Assembly: GCA_026391715.1 (NCBI GenBank)
Contig: JAPLDO010000024.1
Coordinates: forward strand, 1 to 42,064
Reading direction: 5' to 3'
Length of the DNA stretch: 42,064 bases
DNA from: Bacteroidota bacterium
GTDB lineage: Bacteria > Bacteroidota > Bacteroidia > Bacteroidales > FEN-979
Positions 2 to 22,069 of the stretch are shown here, piece by piece. Below the pieces are notes generated by a model, which worked only from the letters and a program-made list of their open reading frames with translations, did no database searches and was not told the DNA's origin. Made by a program: the position numbers and the translations under genes. How positions within the stretch are numbered: the stretch's first letter is position 1; the number at the start of each line of letters is the position of its first letter.

Positions 2-3000
2 AAAATACTCAGTGGATCGGCAGAAGCTAAACGATTGTTCGGATTTGGCGATAATTCTGACTTTTTTACCATTGAAGCCATAGAAGCCTGCATTCCTGAT
101 CGTGAAAGGGTTCACCAGGCTTTACTTGATCTTATTTTGGACAACAAATCGTACAATCTCGAATACCTTATTAATCCTGCCGACGGTTCTATTCCACGCG
201 TAATTTTTTCGAAAGCGCAGCTTGAAAAAGATGCAAAAGGAAATCCGGTTTCAGTTATCGGGGTAATCCAGGATATCACTGAACGGAAAAAAGCCGAAAC
301 CGAATTAATTAATAAAACAACCATCCTGTCAAACCTTATCATCAACTTACAGGAAGGAATTTTACTCGAAGATTCAAACCGGAAAATTGTACTAACTAAC
401 CAGTTGTTCTGCTACATGTTTGGTATTCCCGTTGCCGTCCAATCGCTTATTGGCGCCGATTGCTCCGATTCTGCCGAACAAAGCAAACATTTATTCAAGG
501 ATCCCGATAAATTCATCGCAGATATCAATGTTATCCTTTCAGAAAAAAAGGCTGCGTTCAATAACCAGTTAGAACTGCATGATGGACGACATTTCGAAAG
601 AGATTATATTCCTATTTACATTGATGAAAATTATAGCGGTCATTTGTGGAAATACAGAGACGTTACTGAACGTAATCATGCAGAGCAGATTCTTAATGCG
701 CGACTTCGTTTATCTGAATTCTCTCACTCTCATTCACGTAATGAATTGCAGCAAAAGCTATTGGATGAACTGGAATTATTAACCAACAGTTCTATAGGTT
801 TCTTCCATTCGGTTGACGCCAATCAGAGTGCCTTGACGCTTCAAAGTTGGTCAACTAATACTTTGCAGAATATGTGCAATGCTGAAGGTCATAGCCGCCA
901 TTACAATATCGAAAATTCCGGCGTTTGGGTTGATTGTTTCCGCCAGCGAAAAACTATTATCCATAACGATTATATGAGTTTGCCCAATCGCAGAGGATTA
1001 CCGGAGGGTCATGCGCCGGTGATTCGCGAGCTTGTGACGCCAATATTCAGGAACGATCAAATTGTAGCAATAGTTGGAATAGGCAACAAACCTACAGATT
1101 ATTTGAAAAGCGATATTGACATCGTTTCGTTGCTTGCTGATATGGCATGGGATATCACAGAACGTAAAGGAGCCGAGGAAGCGGTGCATGATAGCGAGGC
1201 GCTATACCGGTCAATACTTCATGCCTCCCCAGACAATATTACGATTACCGATATGGAAGGACGCTTCCTGATTGTTTCGCCTGCGGCATTAGTCATGTTT
1301 GGTTTCGAAAGGGCTGAACAACTATTAAATCGTACTTTTAACGAGTTTCTTATTCCCGAGGATCGGGAAAAAGCTAAATCAAGGATTCTCCTTCTGTACC
1401 AGGGTATTGTTACAAAAGCTGGCGAATATAAAGCGCTCAAGGCAGATGGCACCATCTTCGATATAGAAGTAAACGGTGAGTTTATCAGGAATGTCGACGG
1501 TAAACCAACCAGAATGGTCTTTATCATCCGGGACATTACCGAGCGAAAAAAGATAGAAAAGGAAATCCGCGACTTCTATGGAACGCTTGAAGTTAAAATT
1601 GAAGAAAGAACTGCCCAACTGACTGAAATAAACAAAAGTTTGCAAAAAGAAATTGAAGAACGCAAGCTAACAGAGGATGCTCTGCTTGAAAGCAAAAACA
1701 GGTTTTCATTGTTTATGGATTATTTACCTGCCATCGTCTTTTTAAAAGACCATGAAGGCAGAACGCTTTTTGTAAATAAATATATGGATGATGCTTTTGG
1801 CGCTTCGAGGTGGTTGGGAAAAACAATGACAGAGGTTTTTCCAAATGAATTTGGACAAAAGTTGAAAACTGACGATCTAAATGCGATGAATTCAGGCTAT
1901 CAGAAAATTGAAGAGACAATTAAAAATCTCGATGGAAAATTACACAATTACGAAACACAAAAGTTTATCATTCACCGACCCGGGCAGGAACCTTTGCTCG
2001 GAGGTATTTCCTTAGACATCACTGAGCGCAAGCTGGCTGAAAAAGAAATTATTAAAGCAAGAAACGAAGCAGAACAGGCAAATCATGCCAAAAGCGAATT
2101 CCTTTCGCGTATGAGCCATGAACTGCGTACACCTATGAATTCTATTCTTGGTTTTGCTCAGCTGATGAATATGGGCGACCTCAGCCAGACTCACAAGAAA
2201 GGCGTTAACCATATTTTAAACAGCGGAAAACATCTGCTCAATCTAATCAATGAAGTACTCGACATTTCGGGAATTGAATCGGGAAGGGTTGCTTTGTCTC
2301 TGGAACCAATTCAACTAAACAATATAATAATCGAAATGCTTGACGCTGTCCAGCCAAACGCAGAAAAACGAAATCTGAAAACCGGACTTGAATATTCAAC
2401 ATCCAACCGTCTGTTCGTATTTGCCGACAGGCAGCGGTTAAAGCAGGTTCTGCTTAATTTGATTGGCAATGCTGTAAAGTACAACAGTGAAGGCGGTTCT
2501 ATTATAATAAAAACTGAATTAAAAAATCCCGATGCTTCAGGAATTTCCATGGTCAGGATTTCAATTTGCGATACAGGCAGTGGAATCAGAGATGAAAATC
2601 TCAATAGACTTTTTCAACCTTTCGAACGACTTGGAGCAGACAAAACCGAAACCGAAGGCACAGGGCTTGGTCTGATGGTGGTTAAAAAACTAATGACTGC
2701 AATGGGCGGAGTTGTTGGAGTGCAAAGCATAACCGGCGCAGGAACCACATTCTGGATTGAACTGCCACTCACCGAAGTTCAGAATAACCAAAACGAGCGA
2801 AATACAAGGGCGTCAATACTGAAAATTCCAAAAACCGGAACTATCATATACATCGAAGACAATGCTTCAAACATTGAACTGGTAGAAGAAATTCTTTCTA
2901 CTGAGCGTCCGGGTATCCGATTAATTACCAATATTTACGGCGGTGAAGTTGTGCAGTTGGCAATTGAATACACCCCCGATTTAATTCTTCTTGATCTTGA

Positions 3001-3223
3001 TTTGCCCGATATACCTGGTACTGAAGTACTCAGGCTTCTTCAGGCTGAAGAGAAATCAAAGACAATTCCGGTGGTTGTTATCAGCGCTGATGCAATGCCG
3101 GATCAGTTTGAAAAGTTGATGAACGCAGGCGCTGTAAATTATTTAACAAAGCCGATTGATGTTGTAATGTTTTTAAGAGTGGTTGATGAATGGGTGGGAA
3201 TCGGGAATAAGAAACAGTTTTAA
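2..3223 (+). CDS. Hybrid sensor histidine kinase (multi-PAS, GAF, HisKA, HATPase, receiver), 5' end outside window
   Basis: The frame is open to the left edge, so the gene begins upstream; the first residues seen already belong to a PAS domain. Counting from the TTG codon at 35, I see a PAS end (to about 85, closing in DITERKK), a second PAS (95-215), a GAF-like domain (225-375), a third PAS (385-505), a coiled coil (505-555), a fourth PAS (560-670), a HisKA dimerisation helix with the phospho-acceptor His at about 695 (MSHELRTP), a HATPase domain with N box near 808, G1 (DTGSGI) near 846 and G2 (GTGLGL) near 876, and a C-terminal receiver with Asp about 987 (LILLDLDLPD) and the conserved Lys in LTKP. 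No membrane segment lies in the visible part, so this portion is cytoplasmic. The receiver probably relays phosphate to an unlinked partner, as no response regulator is next to it. The signal sensed is unknown. Confidence 0.93.
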   Translation, partial: KILSGSAEAKRLFGFGDNSDFFTIEAIEACIPDRERVHQALLDLILDNKSYNLEYLINPADGSIPRVIFSKAQLEKDAKGNPVSVIGVIQDITERKKAETELINKTTILSNLIINLQEGILLEDSNRKIVLTNQLFCYMFGIPVAVQSLIGADCSDSAEQSKHLFKDPDKFIADINVILSEKKAAFNNQLELHDGRHFERDYIPIYIDENYSGHLWKYRDVTERNHAEQILNARLRLSEFSHSHSRNELQQKLLDELELLTNSSIGFFHSVDANQSALTLQSWSTNTLQNMCNAEGHSRHYNIENSGVWVDCFRQRKTIIHNDYMSLPNRRGLPEGHAPVIRELVTPIFRNDQIVAIVGIGNKPTDYLKSDIDIVSLLADMAWDITERKGAEEAVHDSEALYRSILHASPDNITITDMEGRFLIVSPAALVMFGFERAEQLLNRTFNEFLIPEDREKAKSRILLLYQGIVTKAGEYKALKADGTIFDIEVNGEFIRNVDGKPTRMVFIIRDITERKKIEKEIRDFYGTLEVKIEERTAQLTEINKSLQKEIEERKLTEDALLESKNRFSLFMDYLPAIVFLKDHEGRTLFVNKYMDDAFGASRWLGKTMTEVFPNEFGQKLKTDDLNAMNSGYQKIEETIKNLDGKLHNYETQKFIIHRPGQEPLLGGISLDITERKLAEKEIIKARNEAEQANHAKSEFLSRMSHELRTPMNSILGFAQLMNMGDLSQTHKKGVNHILNSGKHLLNLINEVLDISGIESGRVALSLEPIQLNNIIIEMLDAVQPNAEKRNLKTGLEYSTSNRLFVFADRQRLKQVLLNLIGNAVKYNSEGGSIIIKTELKNPDASGISMVRISICDTGSGIRDENLNRLFQPFERLGADKTETEGTGLGLMVVKKLMTAMGGVVGVQSITGAGTTFWIELPLTEVQNNQNERNTRASILKIPKTGTIIYIEDNASNIELVEEILSTERPGIRLITNIYGGEVVQLAIEYTPDLILLDLDLPDIPGTEVLRLLQAEEKSKTIPVVVISADAMPDQFEKLMNAGAVNYLTKPIDVVMFLRVVDEWVGIGNKKQF

Positions 3224-12552: not shown

Positions 12553-13659
12553 ATGGCAAAATACATTTATGAGTACAAAAACTGGACAGATTTTTCGTGG
12601 CAGGACAAAGCCATAAATGCCGTATTTGGCGAAGTGCGGCTTATGCAAGGTAAAATTATAGGGCAAATGAACGCTTTGGGCTTTTCTGCTAAAGAAGAAG
12701 CCACGCTTACCGCCTTATCCTTAGACGTAGTAAAATCATCAGAAATAGAAGGCGAATTGCTCAATTATGACCAGGTACGTTCGTCCATTGCAAGGCGTTT
12801 GGGCATCAACACAGCAGGACTTGTGTCGAGCAGCCGCCACATTGAAGGCGTGGTAGAAATGATGCTGGACGCCACCCAACGCTACACCTTGCTTTTAACC
12901 GAAAAACGTTTGTTTGGTTGGCACGCAGCGCTTTTTTCCACAGGGTACAGCGGACCTTACGTAATAGAAGTGGGACGATACCGCACAGGCGAAATGCAAG
13001 TGGTTTCAGGCGCAATGGGCAAAGAAAAAGTGCATTACGAAGCCGTAAAGCCCAAATTGGTAAAAACGGAAATGGACAAGTTTTTGGATTGGTTCAACAA
13101 CGAAAACCGCCTTGACCCTGTTTTAAAAGCCGCCATAGCACACTTTTGGTTCATCATTATTCACCCCTTTGATGACGGAAACGGCAGAATTGGAAGAGCT
13201 CTGACAGATATGTTGCTTGCCTGTGGCGAAGGCAGTGGAGAACGTTTTTACAGTATGTCAAGCCAAATATTTTCCGAACGCAATCGCTATTACGAAGTAT
13301 TGCAAAAAGTGCAACATAGTTCAGGCGACATTACCGAATGGCTCGACTGGTTTTTGCATTGCCTCAAAAATGCCATGCTCGCCACTGAAAACACCACACA
13401 AAAAATATTGAGCAAAGCTGAGTTTTGGAAATTACACGAACATACCCCCATCAATGAACGCCAACGCTTAATACTCAACAAACTCTTTGACGGTTTTGAA
13501 GGAAAACTACAAACCTCAAAATGGGCTAAAATTGCCAAAACCTCTACCGACACAGCCTTACGGGACATAAAAGACTTGGTTGAAAAAGGTATCTTGCAAC
13601 AAACTAACGAAGGAGGACGAAACGCTAACTACGAATTATTAGACTTTAAATTAAAATAA
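12553..13659 (+). CDS. Fic family AMPylase-type protein (DUF4172-Fic-winged helix), class II
   Basis: A 368-residue protein with three parts: a DUF4172-like N-terminal helix region (about 1-90), the Fic domain (about 110-270) with the complete active-site loop HPFDDGNGRIGR (about 203-214), and a C-terminal winged helix (about 310-365; SKWAKIAKTSTDTALRDIK). Fic enzymes transfer a nucleotide, usually AMP, from ATP to a hydroxyl of a target protein. The inhibitory helix motif (S/T)xxxE(G/N) is present at SSEIEG (near residue 63), making it a class II, self-inhibited Fic. The gene sits on the plus strand between folP and cdaA, both on the minus strand, so it looks like an insertion into an ancestral pair. 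Start at 12553 is preceded by the palindrome and agrees with the family N terminus. No antitoxin gene is adjacent. Confidence 0.9.
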   Translation: MAKYIYEYKNWTDFSWQDKAINAVFGEVRLMQGKIIGQMNALGFSAKEEATLTALSLDVVKSSEIEGELLNYDQVRSSIARRLGINTAGLVSSSRHIEGVVEMMLDATQRYTLLLTEKRLFGWHAALFSTGYSGPYVIEVGRYRTGEMQVVSGAMGKEKVHYEAVKPKLVKTEMDKFLDWFNNENRLDPVLKAAIAHFWFIIIHPFDDGNGRIGRALTDMLLACGEGSGERFYSMSSQIFSERNRYYEVLQKVQHSSGDITEWLDWFLHCLKNAMLATENTTQKILSKAEFWKLHEHTPINERQRLILNKLFDGFEGKLQTSKWAKIAKTSTDTALRDIKDLVEKGILQQTNEGGRNANYELLDFKLK

Positions 13660-17927: not shown

Positions 17928-19010
17928 TTATTCACCCTTAATCTTCAGGAAGAGAATGTTTTTTCCATCTTTGTAGGCATACTCCACACTGCTGCACCTG
18001 CCGCGGATCAGTTTTAATCCTATTTCATCATCCGGGAAATTTTCGGTTAATGGATTTACTGCGGCTCCGGCGCTGGCGCATACCATCTCTACGTTCCCCT
18101 CTTTTTCAGAATAGGAAAGGCTAATAGTGATATTGGAAAAATCGCGTTGAAGCCCCAGAACCTCCTCTGCTATAAGCAGCGTATAACCGGTTACTCTTTT
18201 AGTCACAACATGCTTCTCGCAAAAAGCCTCCATCTCACCCTGCATGGCGTATAAGTCATAGTCGCCGCTTGCGATATTAATATGAAGGCTGCGAATGCGG
18301 TTGATGAATGCTTTGGTCTTTTCTTTCTGAGGGTTATCAAAAATCTGTTGCGGCGTTCCTTCTTCGTAGATCAACCCTTCATCGAGATAAAAAACCCGGC
18401 TTGATATATTACGGGCAAATTCCATCTCATGGGTAACGATAATCATTGTAATGCCTTCTCTTGAAAGGCGGCGGATAACCGCAAGCACTTCGCTCACCAT
18501 TGTTGGATCAAGCGCCGATGTGGGTTCGTCGAAAAGCAAAATTTCAGGCTCCATTGCCATACACCGGGCAATTGCTACCCGTTGCTTCTGTCCGCCCGAA
18601 AGTTCATCTGGAAAACTATATGCCTTTTCGGCAAGACCAACAAGTTTCAGAAGTTCGATGGCTTTTTGGTTCGCTTCCGCTTTTTTCATTCCAAGCAGTT
18701 TAATCGGACCAATAGTCAGGTTTTCAAGAACCGAAAGATGGGCATACAGGTTAAACGACTGAAAAACCATTCCCATTTTCCTGCGTATTTTCGGAACGTT
18801 GGTATGCTTGTCGAGAAGCGGTATGCCGTCAATAAAAATGCTACCGCCTGTTGGAGTTTCAAGAAGATTAAGACAGCGTATGAAGGTGCTTTTTCCTGTT
18901 CCTGAAGGACCGATTACGGAGATGATCTCTCCTTTGCTGATATCGGCGCTGATATCCTTTAGAACGACCAGCGCGCCAAAATGTTTTGAGAGATTTCTTA
19001 CCTTGATCAT
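17928..19010 (-). CDS. Polar amino-acid ABC transporter ATPase with C-terminal GHKL-like domain
   Basis: A 360-residue protein. Residues 1-245 are a GlnQ/HisP-type ATPase: Walker A GPSGTGKST (34-42), signature LSGGQKQR (about 138-145), Walker B ILLFDEP, and the switch His in IIVTHEME. Usual GlnQ-type ATPases end near 240-250; this one has about 115 more residues. The extension has a helix with AEEVLGLQ, a strand pair (ITISLSY, NVEMVCASAG) and a closing DEIGLKLIRGRCSSVEYAY then ILFLKI. That order resembles the C-terminal half of an RsbW-type HATPase domain with a degenerate N box. The domain call is inference. The ATG overlaps the stop of the permease gene by 4 bp (ATGA), so translation is coupled and the two form one transporter. 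Confidence 0.88.
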   Translation of the reverse strand: MIKVRNLSKHFGALVVLKDISADISKGEIISVIGPSGTGKSTFIRCLNLLETPTGGSIFIDGIPLLDKHTNVPKIRRKMGMVFQSFNLYAHLSVLENLTIGPIKLLGMKKAEANQKAIELLKLVGLAEKAYSFPDELSGGQKQRVAIARCMAMEPEILLFDEPTSALDPTMVSEVLAVIRRLSREGITMIIVTHEMEFARNISSRVFYLDEGLIYEEGTPQQIFDNPQKEKTKAFINRIRSLHINIASGDYDLYAMQGEMEAFCEKHVVTKRVTGYTLLIAEEVLGLQRDFSNITISLSYSEKEGNVEMVCASAGAAVNPLTENFPDDEIGLKLIRGRCSSVEYAYKDGKNILFLKIKGE

Positions 19011-21295
19011 AGCCTGCCCTCCATAGTTCTTTTGCTCCGTTTTCTTTTTGGATCCACCGAAATTTCAATCAAGCCCAAAGCCCAGGTGAGCGCCCAGGCG
19101 ATTATTAAATAGAGTACAGCCACCATAATCAGCGGAAAAAAGGCGTCAAAGGTGCGACTTCGGATAATATCGCTTGCCTTTGTGAGATCCTGAACCGCAA
19201 TATACCCCACAATGGACGTCATCTTGATAAGCGAAATAAATTCCCCTTTGTAAACCGGGAGAATATGGCGCAACGCCTGCGGGATGATGATGTAAATGAA
19301 AGTTTTGCTTTTTGTAAAGCCCCCGGCGATAGCCGCTTCGCGCTGCCCGCTATCAATGCTTTCTATCGAAGTCCTGAACATTTCGGAAACATAAGCGCCA
19401 AAGTTCAGCCCGAATGCAATCACGGCAACTATCAACGGATTAATATTTATTGATGCAAACACCACGTAGTAGATAATCATCAGCAAAACAAGCACAGGCG
19501 TTCCGCGTAACAGTGAAATGTAAAGCTTCGCCGCGTTAGAAAAAAGTTTTCTTTTCGACATTCTCAGGTAACAAACCATGCCGCCGACCAAAGTTCCCAG
19601 AATTGCCGCTAAAATCGAAATAAGTATGGTAACCTTCAATCCGTCAATGATGTGAAGATATCTTTTCTCATAAATGATGTTGTTATAAAAACTGTTTGAA
19701 ATAGACTTAAAAAAAGAGTCGCTTTCGGCTGGCGCTTCCTGATTATCGCCGGTTGCCGGCATTCCTTTCAATGGAACCGGGCGTTCGATATTTTTTCTTT
19801 TTGCAATCACGCTCACCCCCGATTCGTAATAGGGATCGGAAAAATCAATCTGTTTTTTCCGCTCCTCCGTGATCATCATGGAACTTGTGATCATATCAAT
19901 TTTATTGGTTGAAATAGAGGCGATCAGACTTCCAAACTGAAGATCAACCGGCACAAACTCCTTTCCGATTGAGGCGACGAAACGCTGAGCAAGCTCTATA
20001 TCAAAGCCAATAAGTCTGCCGTCCATGATAACGGAAGAAGGCATACCAAGATCGCTCACTATGCCAACTTTTAGAACCCCATCAGGCGTGGCGCATTTAA
20101 TATCGGGCATTTCTGACAACCCTTTATCCATCCACCGGTCAACCATATCCTTATATATACCGTTGGATTTGATCTCATTCAGAAACGCGTTGAACTGTTG
20201 GCGTAGTTTATCGCTCTTTTTATTGAACCCGGCGCCGATTTCGACGCTGAAAACATTTTCGGTAAGAATTCCCAATTCCCGGTTTTTACCGAGGATATCC
20301 CGCAAAGATGAATGATCAAAAAACGCAACATCAGTTTTATCTGAACTAACGGCAAAAATAAGGTCGGATACATTTTGATACTGTAATATTTTCGCTGCGG
20401 GAAAAGTTTTTGTGGCATAAGAATCGTGAATGCTTCCCAATAATACGCCAATACGCTTATCACTGATATCATCCAGAGATTTTAACAACGTGGCAGACTT
20501 TGCGGCGGCAGGACTTCTATTACCCCTCACAATTGCTGCAATACCGCTTTGATAGTAGCTTTGGGAGAACAACACTTTCTTCGCTCTTTCTTCGGTAATG
20601 GATAAGCCCGATCCGATCATATCAACCTTGCCGGCTATGAGAGCCGGAAGCATGGCTCCAAATTCCATATCAACAATTTCAAGCCGCTTCCCAAGTTTTT
20701 TTGCAATAAGAGAGGCGAACTCGATATCAAACCCGACAATTTTTTGATTGCCATCAATAAATGACATTGGTTCAGTAACAGCGGCAGCGCCAAATTTTAA
20801 TACGCCATTTTCATCGCTGAATGTTATTTCAGGCATCGGCGCAGGAGCTCCACTTTCAGGAAACCAGCGCTTTGTCATTTCATTGTAAACGCCATTTGAT
20901 TTAATTTCTGTAAGAACTTCATCCATCGCGGTTTTTAGAAGTGTGTCATGCAGCCTGACAGCAAATCCGTACTGATCGTCAAAAAGCAATTCTGGCAAAA
21001 CCACTAGTCCCTGATACTTCGCTGCGATGTTCAGTAAAATTGGTTTATCATAAACGGCGGCGTCAGCCTTCCCATCATTAACGGCAATGGAGCAATCGAG
21101 AACGCTGTTATAATATTCGATTTTTGCATCCGGAAATTTTTTCAACACAAACTGGTCGGCAGCGGTTCCGGTAGGAACGGCAAAGGTTTTACCTCCTTCA
21201 AGCATCCGGAGGTTCGTGATTTTTACCTCTTTTTCGCCGCAACCGCCAAGCGAAAGGACGAAACAAAAAAGCAGTAGTTTTATGAAGCGTTTCAT
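19007..21295 (-). CDS. Fused substrate-binding/permease of polar amino-acid ABC importer, permuted SBP halves
   Basis: A 762-residue lipoprotein-permease fusion. The signal ends LGGC (Cys19), so the N terminus is lipid-anchored outside the inner membrane. Then come four half-domains of the SBP_bac_3 family: a C-terminal half (about 27-150; ending NGVYNEMTKRWFPES), an N-terminal half (about 158-255; GFDIEF, ITEERAKKVLFSQSYY), a C-terminal half (about 265-395; ending NGIYKDMVDRWMD) and an N-terminal half (about 405-500; GFDIELAQRF, ITEERKKQIDFSDPYY). A linker follows, then a HisM-type permease (about 540-750) with the EAA loop REAAIAGGFTKSKTFIYIIIPQAL-like segment. The middle two halves make a normal binding domain; the outer two could pair into a second one. 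It is the gene upstream of the ATPase. Confidence 0.88.
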   Translation of the reverse strand: MKRFIKLLLFCFVLSLGGCGEKEVKITNLRMLEGGKTFAVPTGTAADQFVLKKFPDAKIEYYNSVLDCSIAVNDGKADAAVYDKPILLNIAAKYQGLVVLPELLFDDQYGFAVRLHDTLLKTAMDEVLTEIKSNGVYNEMTKRWFPESGAPAPMPEITFSDENGVLKFGAAAVTEPMSFIDGNQKIVGFDIEFASLIAKKLGKRLEIVDMEFGAMLPALIAGKVDMIGSGLSITEERAKKVLFSQSYYQSGIAAIVRGNRSPAAAKSATLLKSLDDISDKRIGVLLGSIHDSYATKTFPAAKILQYQNVSDLIFAVSSDKTDVAFFDHSSLRDILGKNRELGILTENVFSVEIGAGFNKKSDKLRQQFNAFLNEIKSNGIYKDMVDRWMDKGLSEMPDIKCATPDGVLKVGIVSDLGMPSSVIMDGRLIGFDIELAQRFVASIGKEFVPVDLQFGSLIASISTNKIDMITSSMMITEERKKQIDFSDPYYESGVSVIAKRKNIERPVPLKGMPATGDNQEAPAESDSFFKSISNSFYNNIIYEKRYLHIIDGLKVTILISILAAILGTLVGGMVCYLRMSKRKLFSNAAKLYISLLRGTPVLVLLMIIYYVVFASININPLIVAVIAFGLNFGAYVSEMFRTSIESIDSGQREAAIAGGFTKSKTFIYIIIPQALRHILPVYKGEFISLIKMTSIVGYIAVQDLTKASDIIRSRTFDAFFPLIMVAVLYLIIAWALTWALGLIEISVDPKRKRSKRTMEGRL

Positions 21296-21352: not shown

Positions 21353-22069
21353 CTATACCAATTCAAAAGCGCAGAAATAATAGTTATTGGCAGCGCCTAT
21401 CAGTTCAAATTTAAGGTAATAGCTCGATGTAAACTCCTGGAAAGCTAAGAATTCATGCATCGGCACATTGAACTGATCGAAAAGAATTATATCCCCTTTT
21501 TTAAGATAAGGGGCAATCATGGTTAAAACATATAAGGTAGAAGTGAAAAGATCAGCATCCATCATTATAACCTTCTTTTGATCCGGCTTAATTGTTTTAA
21601 CAAAACCAGGCAGAGTTTCCTGAAAAAGTCCTTTATAGAAAGTAACCCTCTTATCATCAGTCACAGGTACATTTGCGGTCATTGCTCCGCGCTTAAAGCC
21701 ACCCCAGTCTTCAGGCAAACCCTCAAAAGTATCAAAACCTGCAAAAACCGACAATGGGTTTCTGTTAGCGCTAAGCCACCAGTTAAATGAATCGCCTCCC
21801 GAAACCCCGAATTCGAGGTAGGTTATTGGCTGATCAAGCCTCTTTTCTTTGAAAACGTATTCATACAATTTATAACGCTTGCCATAATCCCATTTCGGCG
21901 AATAAAAATCATTGAATTTTACATTTCTGTTTTTGCTGATCCATTTCGAAGCTTTCGAAAGGTAGGCAAGGTTCAGAAGGATGCCGGAGATGGGCTCTAT
22001 CAGCACATGCAGATGAAACCGGTAGAATAACCATTTTGTCTTTCGAATCAGGGTAATTTTAAATGACAT
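21353..22069 (-). CDS. TylF-like class I SAM-dependent methyltransferase
   Basis: A 238-residue protein with a basic, hydrophobic N terminus and a Rossmann methyltransferase core from about residue 70. YLEFGVSGGDSF is the glycine-rich SAM loop; FAGFDTFEGLPEDW matches the acidic strand and the GFDTFEGLP signature of TylF/MycF-type O-methyltransferases; VIMMDADLFTSTLYVL supplies the metal-associated Asp region and GDIILFDQF follows. Enzymes of this group usually modify sugars, often in surface glycans. Transcribed separately from the importer (57-bp gap) with its own promoter box. The substrate is unknown. Confidence 0.78.
   Translation of the reverse strand: MSFKITLIRKTKWLFYRFHLHVLIEPISGILLNLAYLSKASKWISKNRNVKFNDFYSPKWDYGKRYKLYEYVFKEKRLDQPITYLEFGVSGGDSFNWWLSANRNPLSVFAGFDTFEGLPEDWGGFKRGAMTANVPVTDDKRVTFYKGLFQETLPGFVKTIKPDQKKVIMMDADLFTSTLYVLTMIAPYLKKGDIILFDQFNVPMHEFLAFQEFTSSYYLKFELIGAANNYYFCAFELV

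Follow-up and report, generated by a model that had tools for sequence, protein, structure and literature searches.

Two serial, very probably circularly permuted type II substrate-binding domains on the permease subunit of an ATP-binding cassette importer from a Bacteroidota bacterium

Contig JAPLDO010000024.1 of a Bacteroidota bacterium (assembly GCA_026391715.1), a stretch of 42,064 nucleotides referred to here as the window, carries on its minus strand an open reading frame (ORF) at 19007-21295. Its product, 762 amino acids long, combines substrate-binding half-domains with the permease of an ATP-binding cassette (ABC) importer. The next gene, 17928-19010 on the same strand, encodes a GlnQ-like ATPase (P0002) and shares 4 bases (19007-19010) with the permease gene. 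Pfam assigns SBP_bac_3 (PF00497, 4.5e-63) to the 762-residue protein in three stretches, followed by BPD_transp_1. Half-domain hidden Markov models (HMMs), derived by iteration from the window protein and related sequences, resolve it further. The features of the two genes are listed below, where C and N designate the C-terminal and N-terminal halves of a substrate-binding domain (SBD), numbered according to the interpretation preferred here.

21239-21295, minus strand: lipoprotein-type signal peptide, residues 1-19 (LGGC, Cys19), read from the translation
20855-21217, minus strand: C1, C-terminal half of putative permuted SBD 1, residues 27-147 (half-domain HMM, 3e-44)
20816-20854, minus strand: C1-to-N1 linker, residues 148-160, which would join the former termini of SBD 1 (linker lengths, AlphaFold confidence pLDDT)
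20516-20815, minus strand: N1, N-terminal half of putative permuted SBD 1, residues 161-260 (half-domain HMM, 1e-41)
20486-20515, minus strand: N1-to-C2 interdomain linker, residues 261-270, probably flexible (linker lengths, pLDDT)
20123-20485, minus strand: C2, C-terminal half of putative permuted SBD 2, residues 271-391 (half-domain HMM, 6e-53)
20087-20122, minus strand: C2-to-N2 linker, residues 392-403 (linker lengths, pLDDT)
19784-20086, minus strand: N2, N-terminal half of putative permuted SBD 2, residues 404-504 (half-domain HMM, 1e-44)
19691-19783, minus strand: tether from SBD 2 to the permease, residues 505-535 (linker lengths, pLDDT)
19046-19690, minus strand: HisM/ArtQ-type permease domain, residues 536-750 (BLAST placement; PF00528, 3.6e-19)
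18291-19010, minus strand: GlnQ-like ABC domain of the ATPase, P0002 residues 1-240 (ABC_tran, 1.5e-35; GlnQ model, 1.3e-89)
17931-18290, minus strand: degenerate HATPase_c_2-like extension of the ATPase, P0002 residues 241-360 (PF13581 in relatives)

Both halves match PF00497, as do the type II (cluster F) substrate-binding proteins (SBPs) of the SBP_bac_3 family. In a phmmer comparison with PDB sequences, one canonical chain, 6svf, aligns its C-half with residues 35-147 and its N-half with residues 163-259. The permease is of the HEQRo type (TIGR01726, 75.4 bits for a cut-off of 42.2). Half-domain HMMs, Pfam and phmmer thus bear out the order C-N-C-N-permease that an initial annotation had read from the DNA, and PF00528 and TIGR01726 the fusion to a HisM-type permease. 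The preferred interpretation, to which we give a probability of about 0.93, is that the protein is the permease subunit of a polar-amino-acid-type importer with two serial circularly permuted type II SBDs, (C1-N1)(C2-N2). At the level of sequence, the case is made by the order of the halves, the repeated unit, the copy-number ladder, the stand-alone forms, coevolution, a conserved Arg and the operon partner. Circular permutation had been suspected in the initial annotation too, in a different form: N1-C2 would form a complete canonical SBP placed as an insert within a second, permuted one made of C1 and N2, or else the outer halves C1 and N2 would be relics, in which case only N1-C2 would bind. 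Residues 166-390 (N1 and C2) are indeed collinear with a canonical SBP_bac_3 domain and form the best Pfam match. The relic proposal draws on this collinearity and nothing more, the nested one also on the shortness of the N1-to-C2 junction. The results below leave the nested arrangement very improbable and make the relics harder still to credit.

A scan of genome contigs found 147 relatives, of which 80 were retained; with the window protein, 81 were examined. The order C-N-C-N-permease occurs in 37 of them, and its presence in 36 further proteins indicates that it is due neither to chance nor to loss of an N-half in a single strain, of which the homologues give no sign. The remainder have three C-N units (27 proteins), four (8), one (3, the Sporomusa proteins L073, L076 and L081) or other orders (6). 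Four of the six odd proteins (L033, L042, L066, L070) start at the edge of a contig, L078 enters a masked region, and L079 carries an additional C-N unit beyond the permease. The family architecture is (C-N)n-permease, with n from 1 to 4.

The unit also exists by itself. Of 395 genomes searched in the phylum, 44 have a match at E≤1e-60, the window's own included, many of them as two short ORFs. At loci L112-L123, a C-N ORF of 265-282 codons lies beside a separate permease ORF devoid of a binding domain (12 of 12); an ATPase is seen in 11 of these loci, the DNA of L121 ending within the permease ORF. All eight stand-alone proteins inspected from these loci start with a lipoprotein-type signal, and at L120 the genes for the lipoprotein (2220-3002), the permease (1486-2223) and the ATPase (404-1489) overlap. 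Across 118 loci, some of which represent the same organism reached twice, 130 complete unit-bearing ORFs were counted, including 31 stand-alone C-N proteins (258-289 codons, in 26 loci). Every complete ORF (130/130) opens with a C-half followed by an N-half, contrary to the canonical N-then-C order of cluster F; none starts with an N-half, as 6 of the 20 ORFs cut by a locus end do. In 103 of the 130, a loose lipobox-like motif lies ahead of the first C-half. A free-standing C-N protein has to complete its fold by itself or through a swap with its own copy. Single-unit and stand-alone proteins need a C-half to pair with the N-half of the same unit, against the nested arrangement, and the invariable C-N opening is equally at odds with relics. 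A complete SBP within the first 130 residues would, according to the initial annotation, have contradicted its reading; these residues are one half only, while the first ~260 match a whole stand-alone gene elsewhere. A plasmid search for the stand-alone form returned 856 records, all below 60% identity, and the six examined among the 20 listed (L144-L149) were all N-C; they served as an outgroup.

Ligand positions were compared across 190 units by their equivalents in LAO, with position numbers (Arg77, Phe52, Gly119 and so on) that we assume to be the customary ones. The Arg77 equivalent, the ligand carboxylate position of cluster F, is present in 190/190 units, as is that of Phe52; Gly119 and Ser/Thr120 have equivalents in 188/190 each, with 2 gaps, and the Thr121 equivalent is kept in 27/190. 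In the window protein, the positions are G43-T44 and D83 (C1) with Arg237 (N1) in unit 1, and G287-S288 and D327 (C2) with Arg479 (N2) in unit 2. The outer halves thus retain ligand positions (G43-T44, D83, R479), which does not suit relics, and the two binding sites that the initial annotation placed on one chain are supported by these conserved residues. Carboxylate binding looks conserved across units, while the rest of the pocket is different from LAO and between unit types.

Coevolution indicates which halves pair. Unit types cosegregate: the one unit of the Sporomusa proteins is closer, in its C-half (46% identity) as in its N-half (55%), to unit 2 of proteins with two or three units than to first units (27-33% and 34-40%, respectively). 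Distance correlations between C-halves and N-halves were calculated on 187 units, all from proteins that have at least two. They amount to 0.881 overall and 0.913 within class for halves of the same unit, versus 0.390 and 0.563 for the canonical pairing, in which the N-half of each unit is matched with the C-half of the next, and C1 with the last N. The best partner of the C-half is the N-half of the same unit in 9/9 classes. Gene linkage does not explain this correlation, because the C-half of a unit and that of the following unit both adjoin the same N-half. Mean-field couplings, computed on 143 matched rows each, place 51 inter-half couplings among the top 100 for halves of the same unit versus 18 for an N-half and the following C-half. 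With all 285 units, the strongest couplings include G356-I483, V351-S495 and F349-S492; the latter two connect strands modelled at 341-353 and 490-499, which we take to be the hinge strands of the fold. The far weaker signal for canonical pairs goes against the nested arrangement.

The linkers conform to the same pattern. C-to-N linkers are 10-17 residues long (standard deviation 1.46, 203 junctions) and often contain an MPxI motif (60 inspected), N-to-C linkers are 3-20 residues long (standard deviation 3.89, 124 junctions) and mostly hydrophilic (50 inspected), and the gap between the last N-half and the permease is 15-34 residues in 80 proteins. AlphaFold, supplied with the window protein aligned with 36 two-unit relatives, produced a model of the 762 residues with a pLDDT of 80.9. 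The confidence blocks at the C1-to-N1 linker stand at 81 and 85 and those at the C2-to-N2 linker at 84 and 83; values fall below 50 at residues 260-267, in the N1-to-C2 linker, and 514-525, in the permease tether. An N1-to-C2 linker that is variable in length and of low model confidence is unfavorable to a nested N1-C2 domain. The model of a Sporomusa single-unit protein has a pLDDT of 79.0, with blocks for residues 11-240 at 79-93.

Among the best 50 Foldseek matches, canonical amino-acid SBPs fit the window model at 12.9-19.7 Å (TMt 0.32-0.50), 4zv1 for example at 19.6 Å over 259 columns with 26% identity (TMt 0.42). For the permease domain of this model, the fit to 4yms_D is 3.6 Å (TMt 0.80). 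As a canonical N1-C2 domain should fit these SBPs far better, N1-C2 is probably not such a domain in the model, and this failed superposition is a further difficulty for the nested arrangement. The linker, coevolution and model results apply to the relic proposal as well. With a free-standing C-N protein as query, no permuted solved homologue was found among the best 60 of 245 PDB sequences (phmmer, E≤1e-5). Among these 60, only 6h30_A, the canonical GlnPQ tandem, spans a C-half followed by an N-half, from the C-half of SBD1 into the N-half of SBD2; Foldseek fits it to the single-unit model at 18.9 Å. The fold of the permuted unit would be the one predicted by AlphaFold.

A number of observations weigh against this interpretation. 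In the eight four-unit proteins the margins of the distance correlations are thin (C3: 0.885 with N3, 0.839 with N2), and the single strongest coupling is equal for same-unit and canonical pairing, with a z of 5.5 in both. The pTM of the 762-residue model is only 0.42. The Foldseek columns of the canonical SBPs are presumed to be N1-C2 from the phmmer alignment, and the packing of C1 on N1 is deduced from the failed canonical superposition and coevolution. HisG and a phosphate-binding protein, both distant type II folds, fit the model better (7-10 Å, 11-14% identity), which may reflect pseudo-symmetric lobes. In the binding site, the Asp161 equivalent is kept in 134/190 units and is Asn in the three single-unit proteins, the Ser72 equivalent is Met in 55/190 units, unit 2 of the window protein included, and an aromatic residue occupies the column matched to Tyr14 in at most 1/190 units; some sites may bind something else.

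According to the preferred interpretation, the short linker within each unit would join the former C-terminus (last helices, lobe 1) to the former N-terminus (strand 1, lobe 1). Both old termini presumably lie on lobe 1, so that a linker of 10-17 residues can close them, and the new termini would be located at the first inter-lobe crossover strand. Alternatively, the C-half of one permease protomer might complete a permuted unit with the N-half of the other. Half-swaps are easy in related folds, free-standing units are compatible with swapped dimers, and coevolution cannot separate intra- from inter-chain pairing; an engineered permuted ribose-binding protein has swapped elements, as reported in PMC10601554. 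The short, uniform and confidently modelled C-to-N linker fits closure within one chain, and this exchange between protomers has only a slim chance of being correct. With intra-chain closure, each unit would close as a Venus flytrap on a carboxylate-bearing ligand, held by the conserved Arg of the N-half and by the Gly-Ser/Thr and often the Asp positions of the C-half, and would then dock on the permease. Two copies of the permease chain, together with two ATPases, would present four tethered domains in the manner of GlnPQ; a lipid at Cys19 would anchor the array on one side and the permease on the other. Ligand class, transport and stoichiometry are inferred.

GlnPQ of Lactococcus lactis is among the closest parallels. 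Like the window protein, it bears two type II amino-acid SBDs (cluster F) in tandem before the permease on one chain, with short tethers of similar length, and it is served by a GlnQ-like ATPase, with four SBDs per homodimer (a stoichiometry that is presumed here). Its tethers count 14 residues between SBDs and 19 to the transmembrane domain, according to PMC8025302. The GlnPQ domains are canonical N-C, whereas in the window family half order, coevolution and model comparison all argue for permuted C-N domains, in 1-4 copies, often behind an N-terminal lipobox-like motif and with an extra C-terminal domain on the ATPase. Canonical SBPs such as TmArgBP and AncQR share the half-domain sequences but have the canonical half order. 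The canonical importer 4yms, which we take to be Art(QN)2, shares the permease fold but its SBP is not fused.

A natural circular permutation of a bilobed SBP, membrane-tethered and with its binding site retained, is known from the glucose-binding lipoprotein TpMglB-2 (Tp0684), for which a 'Type Ic / Cluster Bc' has been proposed (PMC4990184). That protein, as described there, binds sugar with a type I (cluster B) fold; its cut falls within the N lobe, it has a fourth crossover and it does not occur in tandem, whereas the window protein matches type II SBP_bac_3, is cut at the lobe crossover, and is serial and permease-fused. Brautigam and colleagues raised in the same text the idea that the permutation might suit tethering, of which the window family, with its lipobox-like motif in most complete ORFs, would by analogy be a second case. 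No description of a natural permutation of type II SBPs was found in the open-access literature (open-licence PMC papers). The protein is a widespread variant, permuted, multiplied and type II, of known tethered-SBD importers, and not a broken or nested gene. It extends natural SBP circular permutation from the one described type I case found to a large type II family, whose graded series (stand-alone, 1, 2, 3 and 4 units, fused or not) allows permutation, tethering and domain multiplication to be compared side by side. For annotation, it is a warning that the terminal halves should not be taken for relics, nor N1-C2 for a functional domain despite its best Pfam match.

The partner ATPase scores 299.7 bits against the GlnQ model, under the equivalog cut-off of 379, and is of the GlnQ type. 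A P0002 homologue is present in 75/80 loci, with the ~120-residue extension matched in 73/80. The extension was aligned for 38 of 74 members, the window included, and PF13581 (HATPase_c_2) matches it at E≤1 in 28 of the 38 scanned (best 9.7e-6). In the window it falls short of the curated cut-off (E 0.058, 13.8 bits for 27.4). A segment that we presume to be N-box-like keeps the Glu and lacks the Asn. Compared with PDB sequences, the extension has no match below E 0.55. These features suggest a degenerate, anti-sigma/RsbW-like and perhaps regulatory domain. A broader view, which we hold as tentative and with the odds somewhat against it, is that of a distinct importer class in many phyla. Its type II SBP would have been permuted once and arrayed serially in one to four copies, both ends would be anchored, and its ATPase would bear the degenerate anti-sigma-like (HATPase_c_2-like) regulatory domain. 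Type I (TpMglB-2) and type II SBPs would have been permuted on separate occasions, each time as an adaptation to tethering, since permutation moves the tether points to the hinge.

A quick tree was computed for 70 permuted domains and 17 canonical ones. On it, the permuted/canonical label needs 2 changes, versus a mean of 15.7 after shuffling (0/500 as low). Two permuted Formimonas rows group with canonical domains: L127, whose branch is very long, and the third unit of L143. The approximately unbiased test does not reject a single clade holding every permuted row (p-AU 0.4). A single permutation event is likely, not proven, from these data. A natural guess for its route is duplication and trimming of a GlnPQ-like N-C-N-C-permease protein, because of the way 6h30_A matches the C-N unit across its two SBDs. 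To note, divergent stand-alone C-N proteins of 281-323 codons occur beside amino-acid permeases at L125, L126 and L127 (Formimonas, Pelotomaculum), the family membership of L127 being unsure.

Relatives carry the labels Bacteroidota, Chlorobiota, Ignavibacteriota, Bacillota, Pseudomonadota, Thermotogota and others; most are metagenome-assembled genomes (MAGs), so that any one label may be mistaken. The distribution is patchy within the window's own family, where 14 of 43 genomes have a strong match (E 9e-73 or better); in one of the 14 the match is in pieces. One relative in this family (G034:C18:77779-79051) is broken into several short reading frames, with six matched pieces, and is possibly a decayed copy or a sequencing fault. 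In L079, the further C-terminal C-N unit occupies residues 1035-1267 of the ORF, giving (C-N)3-P-TM-(C-N), where P is the permease and TM an extra hydrophobic segment. In L070, the permease is followed by an extra hydrophobic segment and then a further C-N unit (residues 612-843); the hosts of the two are Thermotogae and Thermotogaceae MAGs. Loci L102, L104 and L095 contain tandem permease genes, (C-N)3-P and C-N-P, and a further C-N ORF truncated where the locus ends, an arrangement that points to heterodimeric importers bearing more than four binding domains; L050 encodes a near-identical three-unit protein, with the ATPase about 1.5 kb further on.

In the window itself, the transporter gene is preceded, 57 bases upstream and on the same strand, by a TylF-like methyltransferase gene (21356-22069), and 12553-13656 encodes a Fic/DOC protein with an N-terminal DUF4172 domain.

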